From contig JAUWLW010000046.1 in assembly GCA_030613505.1 (NCBI GenBank), positions 1-20,486 on the forward strand: a stretch of DNA of 20,486 nt. The letters are read 5' to 3'. Shown here one piece after another: positions 2,166-20,082 of the stretch; positions within the stretch are counted from its first letter, which is position 1, and the number at the start of each line of letters is the position of its first letter. The position numbers were made by a program, and so were the translations under genes. Under the pieces are notes generated by a model. The model was not told the origin of the DNA. It did not search any database and saw only the letters and a list, made by a program, of their open reading frames with translations. The DNA is from Candidatus Zixiibacteriota bacterium. GTDB lineage: Bacteria; RBG-13-66-14; B26-G2; WVWN01.

Positions 2166-3119
2166 ATGAAGAAGCTCGCGATAACGACGGCCGCGGCGCT
2201 GGGCGCGCTGGCGGCCGTTTGCGCTTCCGGCGACTGGGTATACGAGGGCCAGTGGGGAACGCACGGCTCCGGTAACGGCCAGTTCAGTTTCGTCCCGGAC
2301 GTCGCCGTCGCTCCCAACGGAAACGTTTTCGTCGTCGATTCCGGATACAACTGTATCCAATACTTCAACGCTACCGGTTCGTACCTCGGCCGATGGGGTT
2401 CCTGGGGTAAAAGTAAAAGTAAGTTCGACCACCCCTCCGGCGTGGCAATAAACGGCGCCAGCCGCGTTTACGTAGTCGAGACGTGGAACCACCGCATCCA
2501 ATGCTTTACGCCGTCCGGCTCCTTGATAACGGTATGGGGCGAGCGGGGTACGGGCGAGGGTCAATTACGGTATCCCGGAGCGATAGCCATCGCGCCAAAC
2601 GGTAACGTCTACGTTGCCGATACCCAGAATCACCGCGTACAATACTTCACCGGCAAAGGCGAGTTCCTCGGTAAATGGAACTCGGGAGGTACGCTTAAGG
2701 GCCCCTATGCCGTAGCCGTGGCGGCCAACGGGAACGTATATGTCGCCGACTCGTGGGACCACTGCGTCCAATATTTTACCGCGAACGGCTCCTTTGTCGG
2801 TAAGTGAGGCTCGTTCGGACGCGGTAACGGGCAATTTATTGCACCTCGGGGTTTGGCCGTCGCGCCTAACGGCGACGTCTATGTCTCCGGCGCGGACCGC
2901 GTCCAATACTTCACCTCGACGGGTTCCTTCCTGGGTAAGTTTGGCATATCGGGGTCCTGCAACGGCATGTTTAAGAACCCTCGGGGCCTCGCCTTTTCCC
3001 CAAACGGTACGCGGATTTACGTCGCCGATTGCAACAACTTCCGGGTCCAGTATTTCCGCCTTTCCGGCGTCGCCGTCGCGCCCACGTCGCTGGGCCGCGT
3101 GAAGGCGTTGTTCAAGTAA
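2166..3119 (+). pseudogene. NHL-repeat beta-propeller, interrupted by an in-frame TGA
   Basis: The reading frame runs from the ATG at 2166 (GAGGAGG site upstream) to the TAA at 3117-3119 but has a TGA at 2805-2807. Across the stop the protein continues perfectly: six NHL blades of the form G.G.GQF..P..VAVAPNGNVYVAD...HRVQYFT..GSFLGKWG. The TGA sits exactly where the conserved Trp of the G-K-W-G turn belongs (TGG to TGA), between blades 4 and 5. The N-terminus is a signal peptide (MKKLAITTAAALGALAAVCA) and the C-terminus carries the tail TSLGRVKALFK. NHL propellers are secreted or surface binding modules; the ligand is unknown. Other genes here use TGA as a stop, so I call this a nonsense mutation or a consensus error, not recoding. 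The product would otherwise be 317 residues. Confidence 0.75.
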
Positions 3120-3143
3120 ATCTCCATACAAATGGAAACGAGT

Positions 3144-3168
3144 GGGCCGACCTTGAGGTCGGCCTTTT
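3144..3168 (+). terminator. Rho-independent terminator after the first NHL gene
   Basis: GGCCGACC, a TTGA loop, GGTCGGCC, then TTTT: an 8-bp perfect stem plus a T-run, 25 nt after the TAA at 3119. It separates this gene from the next promoter. Confidence 0.8.
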
Positions 3169-3171
3169 CCG

Positions 3172-3200
3172 TTGTAATCACGCGCAGCGCGTCCTATAAT
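3172..3200 (+). promoter_or_regulatory. Sigma70-type promoter
   Basis: TTGTAA at 3172-3177 and TATAAT at 3195-3200 with a 17-nt spacer, directly after a terminator and 37 nt before the ATG at 3238. It probably drives the run of genes starting at 3238. Confidence 0.7.
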
Positions 3201-3237
3201 AAACGGCGAGCGTGGGTAACGCGAGGAGGCTCGGGAT

Positions 3238-4173
3238 ATGAAAAAGCTGACGATAACGACGGCCGCGGCGCTGACGGCGCTGGCGGCCTTTTACGCTTTC
3301 GGCGGCTGGGTGTACGACGGCCAGTGGGGCCGGTTGGGGTCCGGCGACGGCGAGTTCAATTTCCCGTGGGGCGTCGCCGTCGCGCCCGCCGGCGACGTAT
3401 ACGTCACCGAGCACTTCGGCCGCCGCGTCCAGCGTTTCACGCCCACCGGCTCTTTCCTCGGCAAGTGGACCGCGCCCTGGCCCGGCTCGCGGGTGCGCGG
3501 CGTCGGCGTCGCGCCCAACGGCAACGTCTACGTGACCTGCGGCGACGTCCAGTACGAAGCCTACGTGGGGTATTTCACGCGCGCCGGTTCACTCCTCGGG
3601 ACGTGGCAGGTGCGAGGCCGGGTACCGGGGGCCGCCTTCGGCGTCCGCGTCGCGCCGGCGGGAACGGTTTACGTGGCCGAAGCTCGCGACGAGCGCGTCT
3701 CGTATTATACCTCGAGCGGGTCGATGCTCGGGTCGTGGGGGGTAAAGGCCGACGGCCTGGCGCTGGCGCCGAACGGCAACGTCTACGTCACCGGGTGGTG
3801 GGCCCAGAACCGCGTTTATTACTATACGCCGACCGGCTCGCTGTTGGGGAGTTGGGGCTCCAAGGGTTCCGGCAACGGCCAGTTCGACGAGGCCCACGGG
3901 TTGGACGCGGCGCCCAACGGCTACGTCTACGTCGCCGACCGTTATAACTGTCGAATCCAGTACTTCACGGCCACGGGCTCGTTTCTCGGCAAATGGGGCG
4001 CGAGAGGGGGCGGCGAGGGAGAATTTTACGCGCCGTGGGACGTGCGCGTCTCGGCGGACGGGAAACGGGTATACGTCGTCGAATCGGGGAACCACCGCGT
4101 CCAGTACTTCCGGTGGTCCGGCGCCGCCGTCTCCCCCGCCTCGCTTGGCCGCGGGAAGGCGTTGTTTAGATAG
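3238..4173 (+). CDS. Secreted NHL-repeat beta-propeller with SLGRGKALFR tail
   Basis: A 311-residue protein. A signal peptide (MKKLTITTAAALTALAAFYA) is nearly the same as that of the gene at 2166. Six NHL blades follow, each with the APNGNVYV..(D/E).....RVQYFT..GSFLGKWG pattern; blades 2-4 are more diverged. After the last blade comes a short linker (SGAAVSPA) and the shared tail SLGRGKALFR, here with Gly in place of the usual Val. NHL propellers bind proteins, glycans or RNA in known cases; the ligand here cannot be told. The start has a GAGGAGG site. The TAG stop is 11 nt before the next ATG, so the two genes are likely coupled. Confidence 0.88.
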   Translation: MKKLTITTAAALTALAAFYAFGGWVYDGQWGRLGSGDGEFNFPWGVAVAPAGDVYVTEHFGRRVQRFTPTGSFLGKWTAPWPGSRVRGVGVAPNGNVYVTCGDVQYEAYVGYFTRAGSLLGTWQVRGRVPGAAFGVRVAPAGTVYVAEARDERVSYYTSSGSMLGSWGVKADGLALAPNGNVYVTGWWAQNRVYYYTPTGSLLGSWGSKGSGNGQFDEAHGLDAAPNGYVYVADRYNCRIQYFTATGSFLGKWGARGGGEGEFYAPWDVRVSADGKRVYVVESGNHRVQYFRWSGAAVSPASLGRGKALFR

Positions 4174-4184
4174 GGGGTATAACG

Positions 4185-4679
4185 ATGAGAACGGTAATGG
4201 TCTTCGCGGCGCTGGCGTTCGCCGCGGCGTCGGGGGTTGCCCGGGAAGTCGTGTTGTGGGAGGACTTCGAGAAGGTCGGTTGCTTGTACCGGTGGTATGT
4301 CGAGCCGTCGTCGAGCTGGCAGTGGAAGTACAAGGTGCTCAACTGGTATATGAAGTTCGAGGGCGAGGGCGGAGGTCGGGCTGGCTCGTTGAAGGCCGTC
4401 CAGGTGAAGAGAGGCGAGACGTACAAGGTCGAGCTCAACTACCGTTACGGCGCCGCGACGGCCTTCTGGGGCGACCAGAGCAAAGTCCTCCGTCGCGCCG
4501 GCGGCGAGTGGACGAAGGCGGCGTTCGCGGTAGTCATGCCGGGCGAGGACAGCGCCCATTTCCGCGTCGACGTACCGGCCGCGACCGCAAAGTTCGAATT
4601 CGACGACGTGTGCGTCACGCGTTGCGGCGTACCCGTCTCCCCCGCCTCGCTCGGCCGCGTGAAGGCGTTGTTTAAATAG
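4185..4679 (+). CDS. Small secreted jelly-roll-like protein with SLGRVKALFK tail
   Basis: A 164-residue protein with a signal peptide to about residue 19 (cleavage after VAR or VA), then EVVLWEDFEKVG..YRW, a Trp/Tyr-rich central region, and an ending strand FEFDDVCVTRC typical of a carbohydrate-binding-module or galactose-binding-like beta sandwich. The fold assignment is inferred from the pattern EDFE...W...EWTKAAFAV...FDDV; no catalytic motif is seen. It ends GVPVSPASLGRVKALFK. It is a close paralogue of 11629-12123: same length, ungapped, about three quarters identical by my count. Stop and next ribosome site are fused (TAGGAGG), with 11 nt to the next ATG. Confidence 0.82.
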   Translation: MRTVMVFAALAFAAASGVAREVVLWEDFEKVGCLYRWYVEPSSSWQWKYKVLNWYMKFEGEGGGRAGSLKAVQVKRGETYKVELNYRYGAATAFWGDQSKVLRRAGGEWTKAAFAVVMPGEDSAHFRVDVPAATAKFEFDDVCVTRCGVPVSPASLGRVKALFK

Positions 4680-4690
4680 GAGGTTAAGAG

Positions 4691-5659
4691 ATGAAGATGT
4701 TTTTAATTATCGCGGCGGTTACGGCCCTCGCGGCCGCCGCCTGGGCCTCGGGCCCGTACGTTTACGAAGGCAAGTGGGGTAAGAAAGGTTCGGGTAACGG
4801 CGAGTTCAATGACCCCGCGGGCTTGGACGGCGCGCGTAACGGCAACGTTTACGTGGCGGACAGATTGAACCACCGCGTTCAATATTTCACCTGGAACGGC
4901 TCCTTCCTCGGCACGTGGGGCACAAATGGTACCGGCAACGGCCAATTCGACCAACCCATATTCGTGAAGCTCGCCCCTAACGGCAACGTGTACGTTTCCG
5001 ACAAATTGAACTTCCGCGTCCAGTACTTCACGCCGACCGGTTCCTTCCTCGGCAAATGGGGGTCGTTCGGCACGGGCGACGGCCAATTCTACGGGCCGTG
5101 GGGCTTGGGCTTTAAAACCGACGGTACGGTGTACGTCGCCGATTCCCCCAACCACCGCGTTCAGTACTTTACCTCTACGGGTTCCTTCCTCGGTAAATGG
5201 GGCGAGTCCGGCACGGGCGCCGGCCAATTCAATTCGCCCACCGGAATAGCGGTCGCCGCCAACGGCAACGTTTACGTGGCCGACTATCGTAACGACCGCA
5301 TCCAATACTTCACCTCGAGCGGCTCGTTCCTCGGTAAATGGGGTACGAAAGGAACGGGTAACGGCCAGTTCGAATTCCCGCAGGGCGTGGACATAGGTCC
5401 GGGCGGTTACGTGTTCGTCGCGGACCAGGGAAACCACCGCGTCCAGTTCTTCACCGCGACCGGGTCCTTCCTCGGAAAATGGGGCAAGGAGGGGAGCGGC
5501 AAAGGCGAACTTAACGCCCCCAACGACGTTTTCGTTTTGCCCTCGGGTAAACGCGCCTACGTAGCCGATTATTTGAACAACCGCGTCCAATACTTCCGCC
5601 GTTCCGACCCGGCCGTCGTCCCCGAATCGCTGGGCCGGGTGAAAGCGCTGTTTAGGTAG
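4691..5659 (+). CDS. Secreted NHL-repeat beta-propeller with SLGRVKALFR tail
   Basis: A 322-residue protein. The signal peptide is of a different subtype (MKMFLIIAAVTALAAAAWA) and resembles that of the gene at 11030 rather than those of the other NHL proteins. Six very regular blades follow (G.G.GQF..P....VA.NGNVYVAD..N.RVQYFT.TGSFLGKWG). It ends VVPESLGRVKALFR-TAG. The regularity, with strong codon-level similarity between blades, suggests recent internal repeat expansion or homogenisation. It is coupled to the upstream 4185-4679 gene through TAGGAGG. A palindromic element and a new ribosome site follow before the next gene. Confidence 0.9.
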   Translation: MKMFLIIAAVTALAAAAWASGPYVYEGKWGKKGSGNGEFNDPAGLDGARNGNVYVADRLNHRVQYFTWNGSFLGTWGTNGTGNGQFDQPIFVKLAPNGNVYVSDKLNFRVQYFTPTGSFLGKWGSFGTGDGQFYGPWGLGFKTDGTVYVADSPNHRVQYFTSTGSFLGKWGESGTGAGQFNSPTGIAVAANGNVYVADYRNDRIQYFTSSGSFLGKWGTKGTGNGQFEFPQGVDIGPGGYVFVADQGNHRVQFFTATGSFLGKWGKEGSGKGELNAPNDVFVLPSGKRAYVADYLNNRVQYFRRSDPAVVPESLGRVKALFR

Positions 5660-5683
5660 GGGCGACCGGCTAGTCGCTCGGCG

Positions 5684-5724
5684 CGGACAAGGGGCTTAAG
5701 CCCCTTGTTAACGGCCCTTGTCCG
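5684..5724 (+). repeat. Palindromic stem-loop element, copy 1
   Basis: CGGACAAGGG at 5684-5693 pairs with CCCTTGTCCG at 5715-5724, and an inner perfect palindrome GGGGCTTAAGCCCC occupies 5691-5704. The two stems can compete, since ACAAGG also pairs with the CCTTGT at 5703-5708. A second element of the same design (GACAAGGG ... GTTAACG..CCCTTGTC) is at 8690-8736. It sits between coding units and has the appearance of a REP-like dispersed palindrome, which is an inference from two copies. Confidence 0.55.
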
Positions 5725-5739
5725 AGGAGGTTCAGGGAA

Positions 5740-7686
5740 ATGAATAAGCTCGCCATAACTGCGGCCGCGGCGCTCGCCGCGCTGGCGGCTTTTTATGCCT
5801 GGGGCGAACCACCCTTCGGGCAAACGCCCGACTGGGAGAGCGCCGACGAAAGGGCAACGAATGATATCGCCTTGGCCGACTTCAACGGCGACGGGTGGCG
5901 AAATACCACGGGCGAACGGAGTACGGGAAACGGTAAGAGACACGTGTTTTACCTTAAACACTACCCGGCCCTGACGATCACCGCTATAAGGGTTGACGGA
6001 AAGAAAGTACCGCGCGGCGACTACTGTTTTGACTCCCGCGCCGGCTGGTTTTCGCTCAAAGAGGCGCCCGCGGAAGGCGCCGGCGTAAAGGTAGATTATA
6101 AGTGGTCGAACCGGCTCGACTTCTTTGCCGGCAACGAGACGCGGAGCCAGACCGACAACCGCGACGTGATTTATTTCAACCGCGGCGGCGCGCTGGAGAA
6201 GACGCCGTCGTGGTTGTCGACCGCGCGCGTGAATACCTGGACCGTAAAGGAGGCTGACTACGACGCCGACGGCGACGTCGACGTTGCCATAGGCGGCGAC
6301 GCTTTTATAAAGGTCTACAAGAACACCGGCTCCGGCCTGGAGCGCACGCCGTCGTGGAGCACGTCGGAGCCCGGGGGATGGCCCGAGTGTTTCGCCTGGG
6401 GTGACGTCGACAACGACGGCTATCTCGAGTTGGCGGTGGCGGATTCGTTGGCGCAGTGGTTCTACGTCTTCAAGAACAACGGCGGTACATTGGAGAAGAC
6501 GCCGTCGTGGACCACAAATTACGACAAGGCCCGCTACGTGGCCTGGGGCGACGCCGACGGCGACGGCGACATGGATCTGGCGGGCGGTACGTCCCCTTCG
6601 GTAGGCGTGGCGGAGGGGTTCGTCTACTTATTCAGGAACAACAACGGGTCCCTCGCCAAAACCCATTATTGGAAGAACGACCCGCCCGCGGGGCGGTGTC
6701 ACGCGCTGGCCTGGGGCGACGTCAACGACGACGGCTGGCTCGACCTGGTCAAGGGCATTTTTGGGCGCGGGACGGGAAACGACCCCTACGCCGACATCTA
6801 CTATTCGAACCGGGGCGTTTTACCCAAGAAGCCGAGCTGGGAATCCGATGTCTATACGTACTGCTTCGCCTCGTGCCTGGTGGACGCCGACGCCGACGGC
6901 CTTTTGGACCTTATACAAGCTGACTTCGGCGTAATCGGCTATTTCGGTAACGGCGCGGCGTTGCCGAGAAACCCCTCGTGGGTTTACCGCGCGGGAAGCC
7001 CTTACGCTATTTTTGACGCCCGGGTCGGCGACGTCGACGCCGACCGCTACCCGGACGTCGTGGTCGGTTGCAATGCTTTACCCAGCAACCCCACCGGCGG
7101 CCGTAACAAACTATTCTTGAACAGGTGCGATATCGGCATAGACGTTGAGGATTTCGGCGCGGCCCCGCGTCGGGGCGCCGTCGCGCTACGCTGGGGAGTC
7201 TCGGTGGCCGTCGCGGGCTTCAACCTCCTGCGCGAAACCGAATACCCCTCGGCCGCCGCCGGACGGGTTAAGATTAACGAGGCCCTCATCACCGGCCGCT
7301 CGCCGTATCGCTACCTCGACGCGGACGTAATTCCGGGGACGCCGTATCGATACTGGTTGGAAGTCGTGCCGCTCGCGGGTCCCGCCGAGCTCCACGGGCC
7401 GGTGGAGTGCACGGCGGGACGCAAGGCCTCCTTCGCACTCGACCAGAACGTTCCCAATCCCGCTCGCGCGGCCACAACTATCGCGTTCTCCGTTCCCGCG
7501 GCCTGCGACGCGACGCTCGCTCTCTACGACCTGGCGGGCCGTAAGGTCGCCTCCCGCGTCGTGTCGGCCAAGGCCGGCGGTAACGAGGTCGAGGTTGACT
7601 TGTCGTCGTTCGCGCCCGGCGTGTATACGTATCGCCTGGAGGCCGGCGGTAAGGCCGCGGCGAAGCGGATGGTCGTAGTTCGTTAG
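5740..7686 (+). CDS. Secreted FG-GAP/VCBS-repeat protein with Por/FlgD-like C-terminal domain
   Basis: A 648-residue protein. The signal peptide (MNKLAITAAAALAALAAFYA) and its ribosome-site region (AGGAGGTTCAGGGAAATG) closely match those of the NHL genes, although the mature part is unrelated. Residues about 45-450 hold FG-GAP/VCBS-type repeats with calcium-type loops D-x-[DN]-x-D-G (for example DFNGDG, DYDADGD, DVDNDGY, DADGDGD, DVNDDGW, DADADGL), predicting a calcium-bound beta-propeller. A fibronectin-like stretch follows. The last 85 or so residues carry NVPNPARAATTIAFSVP, LALYDLAGRKV and G.YTYRLEAGG..AAKRMVVVR, the pattern of T9SS type A sorting or FlgD-like domains. In-frame codons after the stop still spell a relic of the array tail (see 7687-7728). 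Confidence 0.88.
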   Translation: MNKLAITAAAALAALAAFYAWGEPPFGQTPDWESADERATNDIALADFNGDGWRNTTGERSTGNGKRHVFYLKHYPALTITAIRVDGKKVPRGDYCFDSRAGWFSLKEAPAEGAGVKVDYKWSNRLDFFAGNETRSQTDNRDVIYFNRGGALEKTPSWLSTARVNTWTVKEADYDADGDVDVAIGGDAFIKVYKNTGSGLERTPSWSTSEPGGWPECFAWGDVDNDGYLELAVADSLAQWFYVFKNNGGTLEKTPSWTTNYDKARYVAWGDADGDGDMDLAGGTSPSVGVAEGFVYLFRNNNGSLAKTHYWKNDPPAGRCHALAWGDVNDDGWLDLVKGIFGRGTGNDPYADIYYSNRGVLPKKPSWESDVYTYCFASCLVDADADGLLDLIQADFGVIGYFGNGAALPRNPSWVYRAGSPYAIFDARVGDVDADRYPDVVVGCNALPSNPTGGRNKLFLNRCDIGIDVEDFGAAPRRGAVALRWGVSVAVAGFNLLRETEYPSAAAGRVKINEALITGRSPYRYLDADVIPGTPYRYWLEVVPLAGPAELHGPVECTAGRKASFALDQNVPNPARAATTIAFSVPAACDATLALYDLAGRKVASRVVSAKAGGNEVEVDLSSFAPGVYTYRLEAGGKAAAKRMVVVR

Positions 7687-7728
7687 TACGGAATAACGTT
7701 GGACCGGGTGAAGGCGCTGCTACGATAG
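7687..7728 (+). other. In-frame relic of the SLGRVKALFR tail after a stop
   Basis: Immediately after the TAG at 7684-7686, the same frame reads YGITLDRVKALLR and stops at a second TAG (7726-7728). That second stop is exactly 11 nt before the ATG at 7740, the same spacing seen after the intact tails at 4173, 4679 and 11617. The second TAG also overlaps the ribosome site (TAGGAGG). This suggests the ancestral gene end was here, and that the present end was made by a new stop or by fusion of the Por-like domain. Confidence 0.7.
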
Positions 7729-7739
7729 GAGGGCTAGCG

Positions 7740-8690
7740 ATGAAAAAGTTAATGTCCGGATTAGCGGTTGCCGCGGCGCTGACGGCGCTGGCGGCCATGT
7801 GCGCCTGGGGCGAGTGGGTGTACGAGGGGAAGTGGGGCCGCAGCGGCTCCGGGAACGGCGAGTTTACCTGGGTCACCGGTGTGGCGTTAGCGCCGAACGG
7901 TATCGTCTACGTAGCGGACACTAAGGCGCACCGAGTCCAATACTTCACGCTTACCGGGAGTTTCCTCGGCAAATGGGGTAAGGAAGGCTTTGGAAACGGC
8001 GAGTTCAGACAACCGTGTGGACTTGATGTCGCCGCTAACGGGTACGTTTATGTGCCGGACCTTTATAACCTCCGCATCCAATACTTTACGCCAAAAGGTA
8101 GTTTTCTAGGGAAATGGCGCTGCAACTATGTCCGTGCGGTTGACGTTGCCCCCAACGGTAATATTTACGCCGTCGTCGACGCAGGTATGATTCATTATTA
8201 TACGCCTTCGGGCTCCTTATTAGGTGAGTGGGGCCGCCACGGTTCCGGAAACGGCGAGTTTATCTATCCCAATGACGTTGCCGTTGCCGCTAACGGGAAC
8301 GTCTACGTCGCGGACTGGGGTAACGAACGGATCCAGTATTTTACCGCCGAAGGTAGTTTCCTCGGTAAATGGGGTTCGTTTGGCACCGGACCCGGGCAAT
8401 TCAACAAACCCGCCGGGGTAGACGTCGTTTCCGACGGCACGGTTTTCGTTGTCGAAGCCTTGGGTTGCCGCGTACAATACTTCACGCCTACGGGGAGTTT
8501 CCTCGGGGAATTCGGCTCGTACGGGCGAGGCAACGGCGAATTCAACTTTCCTTTATCGCTTGCGGTAACGCCGAACCAAAAACGCATTTACGTCTGCGAC
8601 ACGAGTAATTCTCGGATACAGTACTTCCGCTGGTCGCCGCCCGCCGTCTCCCCCGCATCCTTCGGCCGCGTGAAGGCGTTGTTCCGTTAG
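7740..8690 (+). CDS. Secreted NHL-repeat beta-propeller with SFGRVKALFR tail
   Basis: A 316-residue protein. The signal peptide is MKKLMSGLAVAAALTALAAMCA, followed by WGEWVYEGKWG, the same opening as the other NHL proteins. Six blades follow, with the third shortened (a CNYVRAVDVAPNGNIYAVVDAG blade lacking the usual GQF loop). It ends AVSPASFGRVKALFR-TAG, so Leu of the tail is Phe here. Codon use is more AT-rich in the middle blades than in the other paralogues. GAGGG lies upstream of the ATG. A palindromic element and a strong terminator follow, so this is probably the last gene of the 3238-8690 run. Confidence 0.88.
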   Translation: MKKLMSGLAVAAALTALAAMCAWGEWVYEGKWGRSGSGNGEFTWVTGVALAPNGIVYVADTKAHRVQYFTLTGSFLGKWGKEGFGNGEFRQPCGLDVAANGYVYVPDLYNLRIQYFTPKGSFLGKWRCNYVRAVDVAPNGNIYAVVDAGMIHYYTPSGSLLGEWGRHGSGNGEFIYPNDVAVAANGNVYVADWGNERIQYFTAEGSFLGKWGSFGTGPGQFNKPAGVDVVSDGTVFVVEALGCRVQYFTPTGSFLGEFGSYGRGNGEFNFPLSLAVTPNQKRIYVCDTSNSRIQYFRWSPPAVSPASFGRVKALFR

Positions 8691-8736
8691 ACAAGGGTAA
8701 GCCGCGGGCTAAAGCCCGTGGTTAACGCCCCTTGTC
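8690..8736 (+). repeat. Palindromic stem-loop element, copy 2
   Basis: GACAAGGG at 8690-8697 pairs with CCCTTGTC at 8729-8736; an inner stem CGCGGGC/GCCCGTG lies within 8702-8720, followed by GTTAACG. The outer stem and the GTTAACG block are shared with the element at 5684-5724. It begins at the last base of the upstream stop codon. Confidence 0.55.
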
Positions 8737-8751
8737 TCCTGATAAATATAC

Positions 8752-8778
8752 GGGCCGGCCTTCGCGTCGGCCCTTTTT
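8752..8778 (+). terminator. Rho-independent terminator after the NHL array
   Basis: GGGCCGGCC, TTCG, CGTCGGCCC, then TTTTT. The stem has 6-7 good pairs. Same hairpin family as 2067-2091. It separates the array from the GH130-GT4 unit. Confidence 0.75.
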
Positions 8779-8784
8779 AACCGT

Positions 8785-8813
8785 TTGATTTCACGGCCTT
8801 TATAGGATATATT
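8785..8813 (+). promoter_or_regulatory. Sigma70-type promoter for the GH130-GT4 genes
   Basis: TTGATT at 8785-8790 and TATATT at 8808-8813 with a 17-nt spacer, 41 nt before the ATG at 8855 and just after a terminator. Confidence 0.65.
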
Positions 8814-8854
8814 TACGAGGGCCGGGGCGGACGTCGCCCGGCCAGGAGGCCGCA

Positions 8855-9811
8855 ATGACGGACGCCGAAAAAGGCCGCGAGTTCACCGCCGACGTTCTCT
8901 TCCAACGCTACGAGAAGAACCCGGTACTCACCGCGGAGAATTGGCCCTACCGGGCCCACGCCGTCTTCAACCCGGGCGCCGCCCTCGTCGACGGCGAGAC
9001 GCTATTGCTGGTGCGGGTGGAGGACCTGCGCGGCTTCTCCCACCTCGCCGTCGCCCGCAGCGCCGACGGCAAGACGAAGTGGCGGGTGGACGCGGAGCCG
9101 GCGCTGGTCGCCGACCCGGCCTACGACGAGCAGCACTACGGCGTCGAGGACCCGCGCGTCGTGTGGCTCGAGCCGCTGGGCGAGTACGCCGTGGCGTACA
9201 CCTCGTTCATCCGCGACGAGACCGTGGTCTCGCTCGCCACCACCGCCGACTTCAAGACCTTCACGCGCTACGGCCGCCTGCTGCCGCCGGAGGACAAGGA
9301 CGCGTCGCTTTTTCCGCGCAAGATAAACGGCCGCTTCGCGCTCATCCACCGCCCCATCATCCGCGGCGAAGCCCACATGTGGATATCGTTCTCGCCCGAC
9401 CTGGAGTACTGGGGCGACCATCGCCTGCTGTTGACGACGAGGCCGGCCTCGTGGGACCTCCACCGCGTAGGCCTGGGGCCGCCGCCGCTCGAGACGCCCG
9501 AGGGATGGTTCGTCATCTACCACGGCGTGCGGCGCACGGCTTCCGGCAGCTTGTACCGCACCGGCCTGGCGCTGCTCGACCTCGACGAGCCGTGGCGCGT
9601 CGTCCGCCGCAGCGAGGACTGGGTCTTCGGGCCCCACACCTACTACGAGATGATCGGCGATGTCCCGGGGGTGGTCTTCCCGTGCGGCACCGTGCTGGAC
9701 GAGGAGACGCGCGAGCTCCGCGTCTACTACGGCGCCGCGGACACGGTGGTGGCGCTGGCCACCGCCGATTTCGACGACGTGCTGAGCTACCTCCTGAGCT
9801 GCAAGGTTTAG
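8855..9811 (+). CDS. Glycoside hydrolase/phosphorylase family GH130
   Basis: A 318-residue cytoplasmic protein (no signal peptide), the usual size for GH130. Motifs in order: NPV near residue 22, FNPGAA near 38-43, LLLVRVE, the family signature EDPR at residues 98-101 (the Asp is the expected proton donor in GH130), KDASLFP near 148-154, HRP at 165-167, GLGPPPLET, YRTGLALLDL, and VVFPCG followed by VYYGAADT at the end. Characterised GH130 enzymes are phosphorylases, or in some groups hydrolases, acting on beta-mannosides such as Man-beta-1,4-Glc and mannan oligosaccharides; the exact substrate here is not decidable. It has its own promoter and AGGAGG site. The GT4 gene follows after 18 nt, an association that suggests a shared glycan pathway. 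Confidence 0.88.
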   Translation: MTDAEKGREFTADVLFQRYEKNPVLTAENWPYRAHAVFNPGAALVDGETLLLVRVEDLRGFSHLAVARSADGKTKWRVDAEPALVADPAYDEQHYGVEDPRVVWLEPLGEYAVAYTSFIRDETVVSLATTADFKTFTRYGRLLPPEDKDASLFPRKINGRFALIHRPIIRGEAHMWISFSPDLEYWGDHRLLLTTRPASWDLHRVGLGPPPLETPEGWFVIYHGVRRTASGSLYRTGLALLDLDEPWRVVRRSEDWVFGPHTYYEMIGDVPGVVFPCGTVLDEETRELRVYYGAADTVVALATADFDDVLSYLLSCKV

Positions 9812-9829
9812 GTTAACGCCGGGGGGCTT

Positions 9830-11014
9830 ATGACTTCTTCTCCGGGGTTGTACATAGTATCGACGTACCCGCCCCGTCTCTGCGGCCTGGCGACCTTCGC
9901 CTACGATTTGGCGTCCGCGCTGGCGAAGGGGCGGAGCGAGAAGCTGGGCGCGGGCGGCAGCGTCGCGGTCGTCGCCATGAGCGAGCGGCGGCGGCGCCAG
10001 CCTTACGGGCCTGAAGTACGCGCCGTCGTCCGCGCCTCGAGGCTCGAAGACTACGCCGCCGCGGCGGAGGTGGTCAACAACTCGGCCGCGGCCGTCGTCT
10101 CGCTCCAGCACGAGTACGGCATCTTCGGCGGCCGCGCCGGCCGCCACGTCCTTCACTTCCTGGAGCGACTCCAAAAGCCCGTCGTCACCACCCTTCACAC
10201 CGTCCCGGCCGAGCCGAAGCCCGACCAGCGCGGAATACTGCGAGCGGTGTGCGCCGCGTCGGCCGCGTTGGCGGTGCACGCCCAAAAGGCGGCCGAGTTC
10301 CTGACGGACCGCTACCGCGTGCGCGAGGACAAAGTCCACGTCATACACCACGGCACGCCCGACGTCCCGTTCGGCGGCTCGGCGCCGTTCAAGAAGACGG
10401 TGGGCGCGGCGGGGCGGCAGGTCCTGTTAACCTTCGGCTTTATCACCCCCCGCAAGGGCCTCCAATTCGCGGTGCGCGCCATGGCCGACGTCCTGCCGCA
10501 GTTCCCCGACTCGCTGTACATAATCCTGGGCGCCACTCACCCTACGATAAGAAAACGCTACGGCGAGGCGTACCGCAACTCGCTGCAGCGCGCCGTCGAC
10601 CGGCTGGGCTTGCGCGACCACGTCCGCTTCGTCAACCGCTACGTCTCACAGGACGAGCTGGTGACGTACCTACGGGCAGCGGACGTTTACGTAACGCCGT
10701 ATCTGAACGAGGACCAGATATCCTCCGGGACGCTGGCGTACGCCGTGGCGTGCGGCAAGGCCGTGATCTCGACGCCGTACTGGTACGCCCAGGAGCTGTT
10801 GGACGACGACCGGGGCATCCTGGTCCCCTTCCGCGACACGAAGTCGCTGGCCTTCTGGGTGAGCGAGCTGCTGGCCTACGACGACGCCCGGGCGTTCCTC
10901 GCGCGGCGGGCGTACGACTACGGCCGGCGGATGACGTGGACCCGCTCCGCGGCGGCGTACGAGGAGCTGTTCCGCGACGTCGCCGGCCGTAAGCCGCGTG
11001 AAGGCGTTGTTTAA
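9830..11014 (+). CDS. Glycosyltransferase family 4 (GT-B fold)
   Basis: A 394-residue protein. The N-terminal Rossmann-like half opens YIVSTYPPRLCGLATFAYDLASAL (glycine-rich acceptor-side loop). A central strand LLTFGFITPRKGLQ contains the Lys-Gly seen in GT4 enzymes, followed by ILGATHP and a C-terminal donor site region EDQISSGTLAYAVACGKAVIST then ELLDDDRGILVPF. This is a nucleotide-sugar-dependent, retaining transferase by family. The glycan made is unknown, but pairing with GH130 points to a mannose-containing one (inference). The last five codons overlap, in a different frame, the DNA that encodes the SLGRVKALF tail elsewhere; see 10993-11054. The natural C-terminus may therefore have been altered. 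Confidence 0.87.
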   Translation: MTSSPGLYIVSTYPPRLCGLATFAYDLASALAKGRSEKLGAGGSVAVVAMSERRRRQPYGPEVRAVVRASRLEDYAAAAEVVNNSAAAVVSLQHEYGIFGGRAGRHVLHFLERLQKPVVTTLHTVPAEPKPDQRGILRAVCAASAALAVHAQKAAEFLTDRYRVREDKVHVIHHGTPDVPFGGSAPFKKTVGAAGRQVLLTFGFITPRKGLQFAVRAMADVLPQFPDSLYIILGATHPTIRKRYGEAYRNSLQRAVDRLGLRDHVRFVNRYVSQDELVTYLRAADVYVTPYLNEDQISSGTLAYAVACGKAVISTPYWYAQELLDDDRGILVPFRDTKSLAFWVSELLAYDDARAFLARRAYDYGRRMTWTRSAAAYEELFRDVAGRKPREGVV

Positions 11015-11054
11015 AAAGGAGGTTAAGAGATGAAGAGGGTTTTAATTATCGCGG
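10993..11054 (+). repeat. 62-nt direct repeat of 4654-4715 (tail, ribosome site and signal-peptide start)
   Basis: This stretch matches 4654-4715 at 59 of 62 positions. In 4654-4715 it encodes the end of the tail (GRVKALFK), TAG, the ribosome site and the start of a signal peptide. Here the TAG has become AAG (11016-11018) and the upstream coding frame is that of the GT4 gene. Read in the old frame it still gives SPAVSRVKALFK. The old stop position is exactly 11 nt before the ATG at 11030. Confidence 0.8.
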
Positions 11055-11617
11055 TGGCGGCAGCGCTGGCCGTTGCGGCGGCAGAGGCCAAGGATTACGT
11101 CAACGAAGGGTTCGAGGCTACGTTTCCGCCGCGTGGTTGGACGACGAAGTACGAAGGCGAAGGCGACGCTAACTGGAAAAAAGCCGGCGGCGGGCCCTGG
11201 GGAAGTTACGCCTACGGGACGGCCTCGAGTAGCGAAAAGGGGCTTGCACGAGCCACGTTAATGTCTTACGAGTTCGACCTTAAGCCTAATACCACGGTCT
11301 ATTACCGTTTCGATTACCGCTGGGGGGATAACGGCCATTCCAGCGCGGAAGCCGATTTTTACATCACGTACGTCGGGGCGCCGTACGGGAACTTGGTATA
11401 CCGGAAGCTCCCGCTCGCCTGGGAATGGGAATTTTACGGCGGCGCGGCCGTCAACGACCGTGCGGCCCGCGTAAAAGCCTGCTGGCGCGTATGGACTATT
11501 AACTATTGGCGTTACCATAACGCTTACCTGGCCCTCGACAGAGTAATTATCACGGCTGAGGCGAACCCGGCCGTTTTCCCCGAATCGCTCGGTAAGGTTA
11601 AGGCGTTGTTTAGGTAG
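11030..11617 (+). CDS. Secreted beta-sandwich protein (choice-of-anchor/cleaved-adhesin-like) with SLGKVKALFR tail
   Basis: A 195-residue protein. The signal peptide is MKRVLIIAVAAALAVAAAEA, close to that of 4691. The mature start YVNEGFEATFPPRGWTT fits the GFE...PPGW opening of MAM-like, choice-of-anchor J or cleaved-adhesin domains. It is followed by Trp/Tyr-rich strands and a closing LALDRVIITAE strand. These domains are secreted binding modules, often in adhesins; the ligand is unknown. It ends AVFPESLGKVKALFR-TAG (Lys for Arg in the tail). The TAG is fused to the next ribosome site (TAGGAGG), 11 nt before the next ATG. Confidence 0.82.
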   Translation: MKRVLIIAVAAALAVAAAEAKDYVNEGFEATFPPRGWTTKYEGEGDANWKKAGGGPWGSYAYGTASSSEKGLARATLMSYEFDLKPNTTVYYRFDYRWGDNGHSSAEADFYITYVGAPYGNLVYRKLPLAWEWEFYGGAAVNDRAARVKACWRVWTINYWRYHNAYLALDRVIITAEANPAVFPESLGKVKALFR

Positions 11618-11628
11618 GAGGTATAAAG

Positions 11629-12123
11629 ATGAAAACGGTATTGATCTTCGTCGGCCTGGCGTTAGTAGCGGCGTCGGTAGGTGCCCGGGAGGTAGTGTTG
11701 TCGGAGGACTTCGAGAAGGTCGGGTGTTTATACCGGTGGAATTTCGGGCCGACGGAGAACTGGCAGTGGAAATACGAGGTGCTCAACTGGTATATGAAGT
11801 TCGAGGGCGAGGGCGGAGGCTGGGGCCGGTCGTTGAAAGCCGTACCGGTGAGGTGGGGCGAGACGTACAAGATCGAACTTTACTACCGTTACGGCGGCGC
11901 GACGGTATCCTGGGGCAACCAACGCAAGGGTCTCCCTCGCGCCGGCAGTGAGTGGACGGCGGCGGCGTTCGCGGTAGTTATGCCGGGCGGAGGCAGCGCC
12001 CATTTCCACGTCGCCGTCCCGGCCACGACCAAAAAGTTCGACTTCGACGACGTGCGCGTCACCCGTTGCGGCGTCCCCGTCGCGCCCGCCTCCCTCGGCC
12101 GCGTGAAGGCGTTGTTCCGGTAG
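11629..12123 (+). CDS. Small secreted jelly-roll-like protein with SLGRVKALFR tail (paralogue of 4185-4679)
   Basis: A 164-residue protein with a signal peptide to about residue 19, then EVVLSEDFEKVG..YRW, a Trp-rich core shared with the 4185 paralogue (WQWKY.VLNWYMKFEGEGGG), and the ending FDFDDVRVTRCGVPVAPASLGRVKALFR. The ungapped match to its paralogue over the full length shows duplication of the whole gene. Divergence is greatest around residues 37-48 and 65-70, possible loops. No catalytic motif is seen. It closes the second part of the array; a terminator lies at 12205. Confidence 0.82.
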   Translation: MKTVLIFVGLALVAASVGAREVVLSEDFEKVGCLYRWNFGPTENWQWKYEVLNWYMKFEGEGGGWGRSLKAVPVRWGETYKIELYYRYGGATVSWGNQRKGLPRAGSEWTAAAFAVVMPGGGSAHFHVAVPATTKKFDFDDVRVTRCGVPVAPASLGRVKALFR

Positions 12124-12228: not shown

Positions 12229-12291
12229 ATTGCTTACGTGCTAATTTGTCTAGATAATTAGCGGGCGCGGCAACAAAAATGAGTCGCCGAT

Positions 12292-12320
12292 TTGCATTCG
12301 CCTCCAGAATCCGCTATAGT
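12292..12320 (+). promoter_or_regulatory. Sigma70-type promoter for the 12366 gene
   Basis: TTGCAT at 12292-12297 and TATAGT at 12315-12320 with a 17-nt spacer, 45 nt upstream of the ATG at 12366. Its position inside the longer reading frame supports the downstream start. Confidence 0.65.
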
Positions 12321-12365
12321 TTAAGGGCGCGCCGGCGTTCCGGCGGCGGGAAGGTAAAGGTCAAT

Positions 12366-13289
12366 ATGAAAGGGTCCGCTTTTATAATAGCGTCTTTATC
12401 GTTAGCGTTGGCGGGAGCGGCGGCGGCCCAACATTACTACTGCGACGGTAAGTGGGGCTCGCTCGGCTCGAGCGAGGGCACGTTCCGCGACCCCTCGGGC
12501 GTCGCGGTGGCGCCGAGCGGCGACGTCTACGTCGCGGACCGCTACAATAACCGCATCCAACGCTTCGCCTCGAGCGGCGAGTTCCTGAGCTGTTGGGGCT
12601 CGGCCGGCAAGGGCGACGGCTACTTTATGAGCCCGCGGGCGGTGGCGGCGGGCCCGGGCGGCGACGTCTACGTCGCCGACGTCTTCAACCACCGCATCCA
12701 GCGCTTCGACGCGAGCGGCTCGTTCGTGCGCGCCTGGGGCAAGAGGGGACCCCGGGAGGGCGAGCTCGGCTGCCCGCGCGGCGTCGCGGTGGCGCCGGGC
12801 GGCGACGTCTACGTGGCCGATACCGACAACAACCGCGTCCAGTACTTCTCGCTCAAGGGGAAGTTCCGCGGCGGCTGGGGCAAGTACGGCGACGGCAAGG
12901 GGAAGTTCAAAGCGCCGTGGGGCGTCGCGGTAGCGCCCGACGGGACCGTCTACGTCGCCGACACCGAGAACAACCGCGTACAGTACTTCTCGCCCGAGGG
13001 TAAATTCCGCGGCAAGTGGGGCGAGGAGGGTTCCGAGGACGGCGAGTTCCGCAACCCGATGGACGTGGCGGTCGACGCCGACGGGACCGTATACGTAGCC
13101 GACGCCGACAACGACCGCGTCCAGTACTTCACGCCCGAAGGCGAGTTCCTGGGCAAGTGGGGGACGTACGGCTTCGGCGAGGGGGAGTTCAACAACCCGG
13201 CGGCGCTGGCGGTGTCGCCGGACGGAAAGGTCTACGTCGTGGAGTGCAACGGCGCGCGCGTCCAGCGCTTCGTCGCCCGGGCGCATTAG
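12366..13289 (+). CDS. Secreted NHL-repeat beta-propeller without the tail
   Basis: A 307-residue protein. I chose the ATG at 12366 because it gives a clean signal peptide (MKGSAFIIASLSLALAGAAAA) and lies after a promoter; the frame opens at 12279 but the extra 29 residues are Arg-rich and implausible. Six NHL blades follow (GEF..P.GVAVAPGGDVYVAD..NNRVQYF...GKFRGKWG), with more Glu/Asp and fewer Asn than in the other paralogues. It ends VQRFVARAH and lacks both the proline linker and the SLGRVKALF tail. It is transcribed alone, with its own promoter and terminator. Confidence 0.88.
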   Translation: MKGSAFIIASLSLALAGAAAAQHYYCDGKWGSLGSSEGTFRDPSGVAVAPSGDVYVADRYNNRIQRFASSGEFLSCWGSAGKGDGYFMSPRAVAAGPGGDVYVADVFNHRIQRFDASGSFVRAWGKRGPREGELGCPRGVAVAPGGDVYVADTDNNRVQYFSLKGKFRGGWGKYGDGKGKFKAPWGVAVAPDGTVYVADTENNRVQYFSPEGKFRGKWGEEGSEDGEFRNPMDVAVDADGTVYVADADNDRVQYFTPEGEFLGKWGTYGFGEGEFNNPAALAVSPDGKVYVVECNGARVQRFVARAH

Positions 13290-13462: not shown

Positions 13463-14983
13463 TTACACTAAAACCTCGGTAGACGAAGACGAGCGGCCAC
13501 GTACCCAAATGTGTTTATTACTATCGTAAGCCCACCCCTGCTTCTTTATCATGTCTGCGAAATCCTGTTTATTGATACTCAATGCGCTTATGGCGCCCTT
13601 TTCCCAAGCCTCCACCACTAATTTGTTGAGCAGGTATTCCCCGTATATTCGACCAGTTTTCGCATCGTCAAGAATGCTGGCAATAGTAGCTTCGACATCG
13701 AACTTATCCGTTCGCCTAATCATAACCGCTTTGCCGGTCGCAAAGAACGTTAGTATCAACTCACCAGCAAGTACTGCCTTTTTGCCCTTTTTCTTGTGCA
13801 TTGACCAAATGGGGTCGCCTATTTGCGATATCGCTGCTCGGAGCTCCATTCCAGATTCGGATGCCGCCATAAGAATCGCTTCAAAGTACTTCGTCTGCCA
13901 ATGCTGGAATACTACCGAAAACCATCTTTCGGGTTTCAACATTCTCGCGCAAGCTTTGATAGAGTTCCCAAGCCGTTGTATGTATTCTTCCTCGCTGTGT
14001 TTAACGTCCCCACCTACTATTAACTCTTTCTCTTTCGCTTTCTGACTAGGCATTCGTCCTAGCCATCCATTCCACAAGGTAGATAGGTCAAGATATGCTA
14101 TGTGCGCTCCGTATGGAGGGTCTGTATATATGTAATCGATTTGGCTTTTAAAAATATCGCCAATTTCCTCAATATCCTTCTCGTAGGCGAAAAACTCCCC
14201 TTCCCATCCTCCGGTCCTCTCTTTTAACTCAATTGCGGAATCTATCTCTTTCTTGGCCTCGATTATATTCGTTGCTCTTTCAAAAAACGTAGGCCAAGCT
14301 GGTAGTATAACGGGGGTTTTCGCCACCTTATAACGATATATACTGAATAAACTTGAACCACCCCTCGACGCCCGGCGTCCTTCGGCAGATAGAAATGTCT
14401 TATTAAGTTTTGTTAGTGTTGCCGACCACGCGAGCAATAGGCCGCCTCGAATATAGTCGCTTTGAATTGCATCAATTGCCTCCTTCAGGACTCCAAGTGC
14501 TATAATTTGTTGCGGCAGGAATAATTCAAAGTATGCACCTACATCAGAATTTTTAGGAAGGGGAAGATTAGGTGGTAGTTCTAACTTCTGCTCCCATTTA
14601 CGGAGGGAAGTTTCATCTGCTGTTTCTATCTGTTCTATGGTGGGTCGACATCTTTCCTCCAATTCAGATAGGGCTGAAATATATTCTGAGGTAGTGCCAC
14701 GATGCAAATCTACGATACCTTGGGCAATGAAGTTCGCGAGAGGGTTTATGTCGTTCTGGATACCTACGCGGTTTTCAAGATAGGCCTCTATAGCCGTAAC
14801 GCCAGAACCTCCGAAAGGGTCCATCACCTTGTCGCCCTCTCTCGAATAGTGAAGAATGTACTTCTTTACGACATTGTACGGACGTCTAGTGAAATAGGGA
14901 TGAACCCCGTAATGACGCTTCGCGCTTTGGCGTTCTGCGCGAACGGGCGAATCAATAGGGGTTATATACTTATAATCGGTCAT
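13463..14983 (-). CDS. DNA amino-methyltransferase (N6-adenine or N4-cytosine), DUF1156/COG1743-like
   Basis: A 506-residue protein. The AdoMet-binding motif I is early (MDPFGGSG, residues 54-61, then a NDINPLA at 78-84) and the catalytic motif IV is late (YTDPPYG, residues 287-292). The order I then IV, with about 225 residues between, places the likely target-recognition region in the middle. The stretch DPPYGAHIAYLDLSTLWNGWLG resembles DUF1156-type methylases (DPPYYDN..YADLSDF...WL). It methylates an exocyclic amino group in DNA; sequence specificity is unknown. The ATG overlaps the stop of the upstream restriction-enzyme-like gene by ATGA, so the two form an operon. Its codon use is AT-richer than that of its neighbours, which points to transfer. 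Confidence 0.85.
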   Translation of the reverse strand: MTDYKYITPIDSPVRAERQSAKRHYGVHPYFTRRPYNVVKKYILHYSREGDKVMDPFGGSGVTAIEAYLENRVGIQNDINPLANFIAQGIVDLHRGTTSEYISALSELEERCRPTIEQIETADETSLRKWEQKLELPPNLPLPKNSDVGAYFELFLPQQIIALGVLKEAIDAIQSDYIRGGLLLAWSATLTKLNKTFLSAEGRRASRGGSSLFSIYRYKVAKTPVILPAWPTFFERATNIIEAKKEIDSAIELKERTGGWEGEFFAYEKDIEEIGDIFKSQIDYIYTDPPYGAHIAYLDLSTLWNGWLGRMPSQKAKEKELIVGGDVKHSEEEYIQRLGNSIKACARMLKPERWFSVVFQHWQTKYFEAILMAASESGMELRAAISQIGDPIWSMHKKKGKKAVLAGELILTFFATGKAVMIRRTDKFDVEATIASILDDAKTGRIYGEYLLNKLVVEAWEKGAISALSINKQDFADMIKKQGWAYDSNKHIWVRGRSSSSTEVLV

Positions 14984-15864
14984 CTTGGCCCCCCAAGCCT
15001 CTGAAGATCTAAATCAGCTAACGCCTCCAATTCTATAATATCGATGTGCTCCGGAATTGGTTTCCTGCCCTGCGTAGCACACAGTAACACTGCTCGTGAC
15101 AATTCATCTTTGCCGTACTTCTTCATTTGGTAGCTAAATCCGTTGCTATTCTTTTTAAGTTCAACGGGAATTCTGTATACCGGGAAGTCGCCGAACTTGA
15201 ACTCGGTAATACAATCATAGCCCTTACCTACGAATCCTCCGAGAGACATCCCAAGATGTTTAAGCGGTCCCGAGGCTCGAAGTATATCCGTCTCCTGAAT
15301 GTACGGTAACGCTGTTCCTTTCCGGTGGTCGCGGGCAATCCGTTGGAACTCCTCCTTGCACCAAGGAACAAGCCATGGGGTTTTGTTTATTATATCGGCC
15401 ATTTGTTTAAGCCAAAATGGGCTCTGGTAAGTTTTTGTGAATGTTAACGGTTTCGGTATGGGTTCAATAATTATCGTTTTATCCTTATCCGCATACTTAC
15501 ACTTTAGCGGCGTAATGTAGAACGCTAGGTCTCGTATCTCAATATCGACATCTATCCTCTCGAAATCCCCCGGACGTAATCGATACCAATCGCGTATGGA
15601 CTCGCCTATACTCTCTCGTGCGCGGCCTTGTTGAATACGGTCATGGCCAACCTTTCCGGGAACCGGACGATTCCTCTTGTCGAGCTTATGTTCCGTCCCG
15701 ACAGCTACGTAAACTGATTTAGTTGCACCATACGGAGTGACCAAAGCTACCCGAACAGCTCCTTTTTTCCGAAGGTACTTTTTTACTTCCGGCGTTAGGT
15801 CGTGAAAGTAGTATTGGGGTCCTCCCGTTTTTCGGCTCGCCCGTTTTGTTTGTTGTAGATGCAT
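14980..15864 (-). CDS. Putative type II restriction endonuclease (PD-(D/E)XK)
   Basis: A 294-residue protein with no family I can name. The C-terminal third has the nuclease-like pattern D217..E221 followed by VELKK at 234-238 (E235, K237), spaced as in PD-(D/E)XK enzymes. The N-terminal half (residues about 15-125) is a strand-rich region with WYRLRPGDFERIDVDIEI, which may be a B3-like DNA-recognition domain (inference). It lies directly upstream of, and overlaps, an amino-methyltransferase. That context is the strongest support for a restriction enzyme. Start at 15864 with GAGAGG about 4-6 nt upstream. An alternative is an R-M accessory protein. Confidence 0.7.
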   Translation of the reverse strand: MHLQQTKRASRKTGGPQYYFHDLTPEVKKYLRKKGAVRVALVTPYGATKSVYVAVGTEHKLDKRNRPVPGKVGHDRIQQGRARESIGESIRDWYRLRPGDFERIDVDIEIRDLAFYITPLKCKYADKDKTIIIEPIPKPLTFTKTYQSPFWLKQMADIINKTPWLVPWCKEEFQRIARDHRKGTALPYIQETDILRASGPLKHLGMSLGGFVGKGYDCITEFKFGDFPVYRIPVELKKNSNGFSYQMKKYGKDELSRAVLLCATQGRKPIPEHIDIIELEALADLDLQRLGGPR

Positions 15865-19278: not shown

Positions 19279-20082
19279 ATGCCTAAAGTTAAAACTACAA
19301 AAGAGCAACGGAAAGCGATACGGGAAGCGCGGAAGATAATCGAGCAAGCGCTAAAACTCGACGCGAACGAGGCCGAAACGCGCAAGCGCGTAGATCGGAT
19401 TTTCGAATGGGTGATGGGTTACGACACGTTTAAGCATATCACGCGCGAATATGCTGTCCGGGGTCCGGGCGAAACGGAGTACGTGGACTTCGCGGTCCAA
19501 CTCAAACCCGGCCAAGACGTCGAACCCGTAATGCTGGTCGAATTAAAAAGGGTCGGCATCGAGTTAGCGAAGAAACACCTAAAACAAATAACAGAGTACG
19601 CTAGAGACGCCGGTTGCGAATGGTTGCTTCTTACTAACGGAAAGGAATGGCGGGTATACCACGTCGAGTTTGGTAAGCCTCCGAAAACCGAAATTTACGA
19701 ATCGTGGGATCTCCTAGGCGACGATATAGACGATATCGTTCGCAAGTTCGAACTAATAAATTATAAATCCATCAAGCGCGGACTCCTTAATAAAAATTGG
19801 GAACGCGTGAAGGTCCTCAAGCCGGATACCCTACTCGCAGCGATAATCTCCCCAGATACGTTTAGAGTTATTCGTCGCAATCTACGTAAAGATACCGGCG
19901 TTCGGGTTGACGATGAAGAAGTACATAAGGGTATAACCAAATTATTGAACGAGGCCGCCGGAAAAGTTATACCCAAATTAAAAAAGCCTCTAACTAAAAA
20001 GAGAACCCAAAAACCAATAACTAAAGACCAACCTAAACCTAAACCTTTAGTTTTCGAAAACGGAACGCGTAATAAGGGTTAG
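19279..20082 (+). CDS. HsdR N-terminal-like PD-(D/E)XK nuclease domain protein, stand-alone
   Basis: A 267-residue protein with AAGGAG 11 nt upstream of the ATG. Residues 10-130 fit the type I restriction R-subunit N-terminal domain (HSDR_N_2 type). A helical start is followed by E66..YVDFAV with D70, then VELK at 87-90 (E88, K90), and the QxxxY motif as Q103-ITE-Y107. The region LLTNGKEWRVYHV matches the family end strand. There is no helicase domain, only a Lys/Pro-rich tail after about residue 230. Such single-domain proteins occur as solitary nucleases or remnants; no HsdM or HsdS gene is visible here. It may be defence cargo. Codon use is AT-rich. Confidence 0.82.
   Translation: MPKVKTTKEQRKAIREARKIIEQALKLDANEAETRKRVDRIFEWVMGYDTFKHITREYAVRGPGETEYVDFAVQLKPGQDVEPVMLVELKRVGIELAKKHLKQITEYARDAGCEWLLLTNGKEWRVYHVEFGKPPKTEIYESWDLLGDDIDDIVRKFELINYKSIKRGLLNKNWERVKVLKPDTLLAAIISPDTFRVIRRNLRKDTGVRVDDEEVHKGITKLLNEAAGKVIPKLKKPLTKKRTQKPITKDQPKPKPLVFENGTRNKG

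Follow-up and report, generated by a model that had tools for sequence, protein, structure and literature searches.

Signals for the type IX secretion system (T9SS) have been described as C-terminal immunoglobulin (Ig)-like domains of 70-100 residues (PMC11285876), which fall into types A, B, and C (PMC10202324). Secretion needs a conserved lysine near the C-terminus together with the last residues, the final 22 residues of HBP35 are enough for secretion of GFP (PMC10202324, PMC11285876), and the signals are recognised via PorV or PorP/SprF shuttles (PMC12618676, PMC10994853). The LPXTG, PEP-CTERM, GlyGly-CTERM, and MYXO-CTERM signals are each built from a motif, a transmembrane helix, and a basic cluster (PMC3237569). 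Here we describe a tail of about 14 residues at the very end of exported proteins from an uncultured Candidatus Coatesbacteria, starting from a stretch of 20,486 nucleotides (contig JAUWLW010000046.1, assembly GCA_030613505.1; hereafter the window) in which seven genes end with it. We consider it likely that the tail is an undescribed C-terminal sorting signal. Our full explanation, a sorting signal of the Fibrobacterota-Chlorobiota-Bacteroidota (FCB) group that is probably linked to the T9SS, is favoured with less assurance. One part of it, in which the T9SS or a partner of that system reads the tail, we call probable but hold tentatively.

The original prediction had reported one shared ending on seven reading frames of the window, all on the forward strand, and translation recovered each of them. 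NHL propellers with the tail, assigned with Pfam, are encoded at 3238-4173, 4691-5659, and 7740-8690, all three secreted, and at 2166-3119. The first ends with VSPASLGRGKALFR (4129-4170, frame end 4173), in which G replaces V before K so that the strict pattern misses it, while the core pattern matched VVPESLGRVKALFR (5615-5656, frame end 5659), VSPASFGRVKALFR (8646-8687, frame end 8690), and VAPTSLGRVKALFK (3075-3116, frame end 3119). The same pattern matched the tails of two small secreted proteins of 164 amino acids that resemble each other, at 4185-4679 (VSPASLGRVKALFK, 4635-4676, frame end 4679) and 11629-12123 (VAPASLGRVKALFR, 12079-12120, frame end 12123), and that of a secreted protein of 195 amino acids at 11030-11617 (VFPESLGKVKALFR, 11573-11614, frame end 11617). 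For these three proteins Pfam gave no matches and NCBIfam none above cut-off. The propellers named in the original prediction were thus upheld, while the jelly-roll and cleaved-adhesin domains proposed for the 164-residue pair and the 195-residue protein, respectively, found no family match. Its claim that every frame begins with a signal peptide failed for the frame ending at 3119, whose signal peptide belongs to an open reading frame at 2166-2807. An in-frame TGA at 2805-2807 interrupts this gene where the paralogues have TGG (Trp), and the comparison marks the copy as a putative broken gene or sequence error. Tail genes of this genome also stop with TGA, which makes recoding less likely here than a nonsense mutation or an error in the sequence.

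Across the 2.86-Mb source genome, a nucleotide pattern encoding G-x-[VI]-K-A-L-[FY]-x-stop matched 90 times and its reversed control not once. Detailed reading covered 48 stretches totalling 0.80 Mb that were picked for containing matches and are therefore enriched for tail regions; they hold 102 tail open reading frames. In six-frame translation of this sample, the core G-x-[VI]-K-A-[LIM]-[FY] ended exactly one residue from a stop in 109 of its 110 copies. With the enrichment of the sample in mind, KAL[FY]x formed the end of 84 of 641 genes, and only four copies were internal. Chance was rejected as a source of the tail on the strength of the reversed control and of this fixed distance to the stop.

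A consensus from 86 called genes showed V at position -14 (74 genes), P at -12 (85), S at -10 (85), and L, V, F, or I at -9, followed by a core of G at -8, R or K at -7, V or I at -6, K at -5, and A at -4 (86 each), L at -3 (81), F or Y at -2 (86), and mostly R or K at -1. The last 14 positions carry about 46 bits of information, and the local form can be written P-x-S-L-G-R-V-K-A-L-F-R. RALFx ends a further six sampled genes; this possible K-to-R variant was kept out of the counts.

The 27-nucleotide cores were distinct in 97 cases among 102 copies, with synonymous variation at every conserved residue, which excludes a repeat at the DNA level and bears out the proposal that selection acts on the peptide and not on a DNA site. 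Usage of some codons was more biased in the tail than in the gene bodies (GCG for 82% of A at -4, TTG for 47% of L at -3), and more than half of the sampled tail genes (55 of 95) adjoin another; together these suggest that duplication helped to spread the tail. This clustering and bias could be cited for a purely local artefact, produced by recent duplication or by some repeated DNA element, but we hold that reading to be extremely unlikely. The sampled tail proteins, clustered by their bodies only, form at least 16 families, their cores differ in DNA as described above, and in other genera and phyla the residues persist although the codons differ, a conservation that contradicts such an artefact. 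The spread across body families, other Coatesbacteria genera, and many phyla also answers the concern, raised with the original prediction, that the tail might be confined to one local duplication.

NHL propellers are the largest of these families (33 proteins), and the others mostly lack a Pfam match. Using a simple heuristic rather than SignalP, we predicted signal peptides in 77 of 95 tail genes and in 229 of 546 other genes of the sample (Fisher p = 9e-13), so the tail is not found equally on cytoplasmic proteins, the other possibility that would have spoken against a sorting role. The order-level relative G003 gave a similar picture, with 35 of 42 tail genes against 147 of 379 others (p = 3e-8). 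Many of the 18 exceptions were fragmentary or lay at the start of a contig, were misses of the heuristic, or, in one case, came from the broken window gene. A run of tail genes elsewhere in the source genome (L051:6202-11246) has predicted starts that lack signal peptides. Tail proteins had a median length of 259 amino acids, compared to 608 for proteins with T9SS-type domains. In none of the 95 did a hydrophobic span follow the signal peptide, and a CTERM-type transmembrane signal was rejected on that basis.

The window is assigned to Coatesbacteria through its relatives: the T9SS domains of the genus-level relative G005 agree in coordinates and size with those of Candidatus Coatesbacteria bin961, and those of G010 agree likewise with Coatesbacteria CSMAG_1439 (L191). 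Within the phylum, genomes of the same genus contained 59-89 matches each to the strict pattern. A looser pattern matched 55 times in a genome of the same order, and 20 times and twice in genomes of the same class. Another Coatesbacteria family has a form with W in place of L (hereafter the W-form, as opposed to the L-form of the source genome), VEE[TS]SWGEIKAxFE, with 1-9 copies per genome, none in the reversed control, and a mostly acidic end. An NHL propeller of Candidatus Coatesbacteria bin961 (CP070633.1) ends with VAPASWGLIKALYR, intermediate between the two. Across these forms, the conserved core is [ST]-[W/L]-G-x-[IV]-K-A-x-[FY], and the L-form is a local variant of V-E-x-[ST]-[ST]-W-G-x-I-K-A-[LM]-[YF]-R. 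The idea of a short basic ending therefore survives as a conserved tail, but not with the basic residue as its essence, given the acidic end of SWGEIKAxFE.

A scan of 84,980 species genomes with a W-form pattern gave at least 120 matches, of which 80 loci were listed. Among these, nearly all named loci belong to FCB phyla: Eisenbacteria had the most, followed by Krumholzibacteriia, Latescibacterota, Zixibacteria, Gemmatimonadota, and Neomarinimicrobiota, with Bacteroidetes, Chlorobiota, Ignavibacterium, Coatesbacteria, and Delongbacteria also present. When translated, they read V-E-[E/x]-[ST]-[ST]-W-G-[SA]-[IV]-K-A-[LM]-[YF]-R, in which the search pattern dictated the fixed positions and left the remaining ones free, and the carriers had signal peptides. 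Counts ranged from 1 to 74 per genome in 34 genomes, all 34 with none in the reversed control. In a control phylum that contains Desulfuromonadales, 99 genomes yielded two matches, compared to four with the reversed control. Two Desulfo-labelled loci were exceptions among the matches listed, one an apparent chance match (KAPF, then stop) and the other a metagenome-assembled genome (MAG). In Zixibacteria, a secreted family of 140 amino acids carries the tail as a single-copy gene (L151:6838-7278, L184:1518-1934); its neighbours, read from sequence as a Rex-like repressor and a STAS-domain protein in both genomes and also a phosphatase-like protein, gave no hint of function.

In a sample of 198 Bacteroidota genomes, 67 had a match, one of which (G336) was due to chance, leaving 66. 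The carrier in the 30 tail genomes that we read was one small protein composed of a signal peptide, a single FN3-like domain, and the tail. Across 34 such proteins the last 11 residues had a mean identity of 87%, compared to 35% for the body, and no other observation speaks as clearly for the tail as the functional site. The single-copy protein, which ends RTWGSIKA[LM]FR and occurs in about one third of the sampled Bacteroidota (L215:1193-1594, L178, L187, L213, L316-L345), is apparently an unnamed family. Its gene lies beside a maf-like gene in several genomes, and the neighbours identified by reading the sequence (maf, a flippase-like gene, YtxH) offered no hint of function. The extreme C-terminal position of the tail, and its flexibility in the structural models below, would also suit a degron or anti-degron, a tag used in proteolysis or quality control within the envelope and not an address. 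We regard this as very unlikely: the tail is kept at 87% identity on a single-copy secreted FN3 protein across many phyla, it is swapped against T9SS-type domains, and most other exported proteins of the source genome do without it.

AlphaFold2 models were built from alignments of only five sequences each. For the propeller at 4691-5659, the six-bladed domain was predicted with a confidence score (pLDDT) of about 97, which fell to 35-39 over residues 308-322, and a helix detached from the domain at residues 313-321 corresponded exactly to S-L-G-R-V-K-A-L-F. In a Chlorobiota FN3 protein, the core scored about 90 and the tail about 50, the latter being an unstructured end after an Ig-like body. 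The propeller model has no Ig fold at its C-terminus, and in the FN3 model the body is the only one. The tail thus belongs to neither fold, and a role as an element of the propeller or FN3 domain was rejected. The predicted helix has a hydrophobic face (L/W, V/I, L, F/Y) along with basic residues and usually an R or K end, as might be expected if it were an amphipathic helix that binds the membrane or lipopolysaccharide and sticks proteins to the outer membrane with no protein receptor. We judge this improbable, as plain lipid binding would not need the G and K that are invariant, or the A that is nearly so, in the source-genome and W-form sets; the strict one-residue distance to the C-terminus and the Coatesbacteria family with mostly acidic E at the end also argue against it. 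The invariant G and K and near-invariant A suggest instead that a protein recognises the tail.

The tail appears to be an undescribed signal. No Pfam or NCBIfam model covers it in the window tail proteins or in ten W-form proteins, its L-form and W-form strings were absent from the literature searched (mostly open access), and a topic search returned only work on T9SS C-terminal domains and CTERM signals. Like the LPXTG, PEP-CTERM, GlyGly-CTERM, and MYXO-CTERM signals, it is a single short paralogous signal that ends dozens of exported, otherwise unrelated proteins with signal peptides in a genome (PMC3237569); unlike them, it lacks a transmembrane helix and is not known to have a partner enzyme. 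Its length and penultimate aromatic recall a further class of ending. The β-barrel assembly machinery (BAM) reads the outer-membrane β-signal, a short C-terminal motif with an aromatic near the end. The last residue of the tail is mostly R or K, however, and its carriers are propellers, β-helices, and FN3 proteins, not β-barrels.

A close parallel is with the T9SS. Type A domains (TIGR04183/PF18962), like those of types B and C, resemble the tail in being C-terminal, in occurring on many unrelated Sec-exported proteins, and in belonging to FCB genomes, and the tail has an invariant lysine near its end, as T9SS signals have a conserved one. Some domains are also followed, in one and the same slot, by a T9SS-type domain in some proteins and by the tail in others. 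At L219 a β-helix leads straight into an Ig-like domain at the C-terminus, which matches Pfam FlgD_ig and falls below the threshold of TIGR04183; the homologous β-helix at L251 leads straight into SSWGTIKALFR. Among three adjoining genes at L225, two encode long proteins ending in such C-terminal domains (one above and one just below the TIGR04183 cut-off), and the third encodes a short protein that ends FSWGNIKALFR, the entire mature part of which is 44% identical to the start of a long one. Overall, for 23 of 314 tail proteins having homologues, a homologue carried a T9SS-type C-terminal domain in place of the tail. The T9SS-type domains numbered 74 with an iterated hidden Markov model and 17 with a first regular expression that was too strict. 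Both kinds of cargo occur in the window, where the secreted FG-GAP protein at 5740-7686 carries a type A sorting domain (TIGR04183; 7453-7677) in place of the tail and serves as our comparison case; it matched TIGR04183/PF18962 at its C-terminus, while none of the window tail proteins or ten W-form proteins did.

Genome content points the same way. Type A domains were present in 14 of 14 Coatesbacteria genomes (23-67 each) and in 33 of 34 other tail genomes, where counting was capped at 109 and the lone exception was a chance tail match, and 37 of 40 genomes tested had a match to the translocon protein SprA. In Bacteroidota, the tail occurred in 66 of 154 SprA-positive and in none of 44 SprA-negative genomes (p = 1e-9, a value that ignores kinship). 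Co-occurrence with a secretion system, which the original prediction had proposed as a check, was thus found for the T9SS, as all 66 Bacteroidota tail genomes are SprA-positive.

Several observations weigh against a link to the T9SS or against the strength of our reading as a whole. Most FCB lineages have a T9SS, so that its co-occurrence with the tail is confounded by phylogeny. A T9SS signal is an Ig-like β-sandwich of 70-100 residues, whereas the tail comprises about 14 residues, is predicted to be helical, and includes no Ig domain. In a comparison of copy numbers, PorV-family proteins did not rise in number with tails. The MAG G016 (L155, Desulfobacterales UWMA-0216) has two tail matches, including a clear tail protein, and no SprA; it also holds two type A domains, and the bin may well include foreign contigs. 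In the window, an NHL propeller at 12279-13289 with a signal-peptide-like N-terminus is near kin of the tail propellers and ends ...VQRFVARAH, with no tail. The heuristic used for signal peptides, the variants missed by the W-form and L-form patterns, and the use of MAG data are further weak points.

Some of these observations would fit export or anchoring that is independent of the T9SS, through an undescribed receptor or transpeptidase-like enzyme common in FCB bacteria, with the T9SS overlap reflecting shared ancestry. The architecture of the tail is unlike any T9SS C-terminal domain, PorV copy number does not track it, and 88 of 154 T9SS-positive Bacteroidota lack it under the W-form pattern. 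We consider this rather unlikely, because the same domains carry either ending at the same position and the tail was absent from every SprA-negative Bacteroidota genome sampled; no partner gene turned up, although no family search for a sortase, exosortase, or rhombosortase was made. A little less doubtful, and still short of what we would expect, is a separate FCB targeting route that uses a C-terminal helix of about ten residues and a dedicated outer-membrane receptor, that is older than the split between Bacteroidota and the candidate phyla, and that serves a single FN3 cargo in some lineages and has expanded to about 100 in others.

That the tail is a C-terminal sorting, anchoring, or processing signal, as first proposed, is supported by its C-terminal position, its association with export, and its conservation across phyla, and most likely it is an address label for the cell surface. 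We infer its recognition, its receptor, and the final localisation of its carriers. In the proposed mechanism, a carrier would be exported through Sec via its N-terminal signal peptide, and its last ~14 residues, [VI]-x-x-x-[ST]-[W/L]-G-x-[IV]-K-A-x-[FY]-x, would form a serine/threonine-capped helix free of the folded domain. Within the periplasm, or else on reaching the outer membrane, this helix may then be recognised by a conserved envelope receptor that delivers its carrier onto that membrane or across it. The users of such a signal would be the FCB group and its candidate relatives. Because the tail occupies the slot of the T9SS domain and is found almost only in T9SS genomes, the receptor most likely would belong to or cooperate with the T9SS, as a PorV-like shuttle or the SprA translocon.

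Other features of the window were noted in passing. Between the tail genes, 8855-11014 holds two others, one GH130 phosphorylase-like and one for a group 1 glycosyltransferase. Downstream, 13463-15864 encodes a DNA methylase (Pfam N6_N4_Mtase) followed by a protein of 294 amino acids that has no Pfam match; the guanine-plus-cytosine content of this stretch is 46%, compared to about 63% in the surroundings, and the two genes look like an acquired restriction-modification pair. A free-standing N-terminal domain of a type I restriction R subunit (HSDR_N_2) lies at 19279-20082.

The discovery of a sorting machine has repeatedly begun with its C-terminal signal, as for sortase, exosortase, rhombosortase, myxosortase, and the T9SS. 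The tail described here labels dozens of proteins, secreted or at the surface, in uncultured phyla with cell surfaces about which next to nothing is known, and it is conserved into Bacteroidota, where the T9SS is under active study. Phylogenetic profiling and pull-down would offer direct ways to look for its receptor, and the specificity of the motif would allow thousands of proteins of unknown function to be annotated as one exported class.

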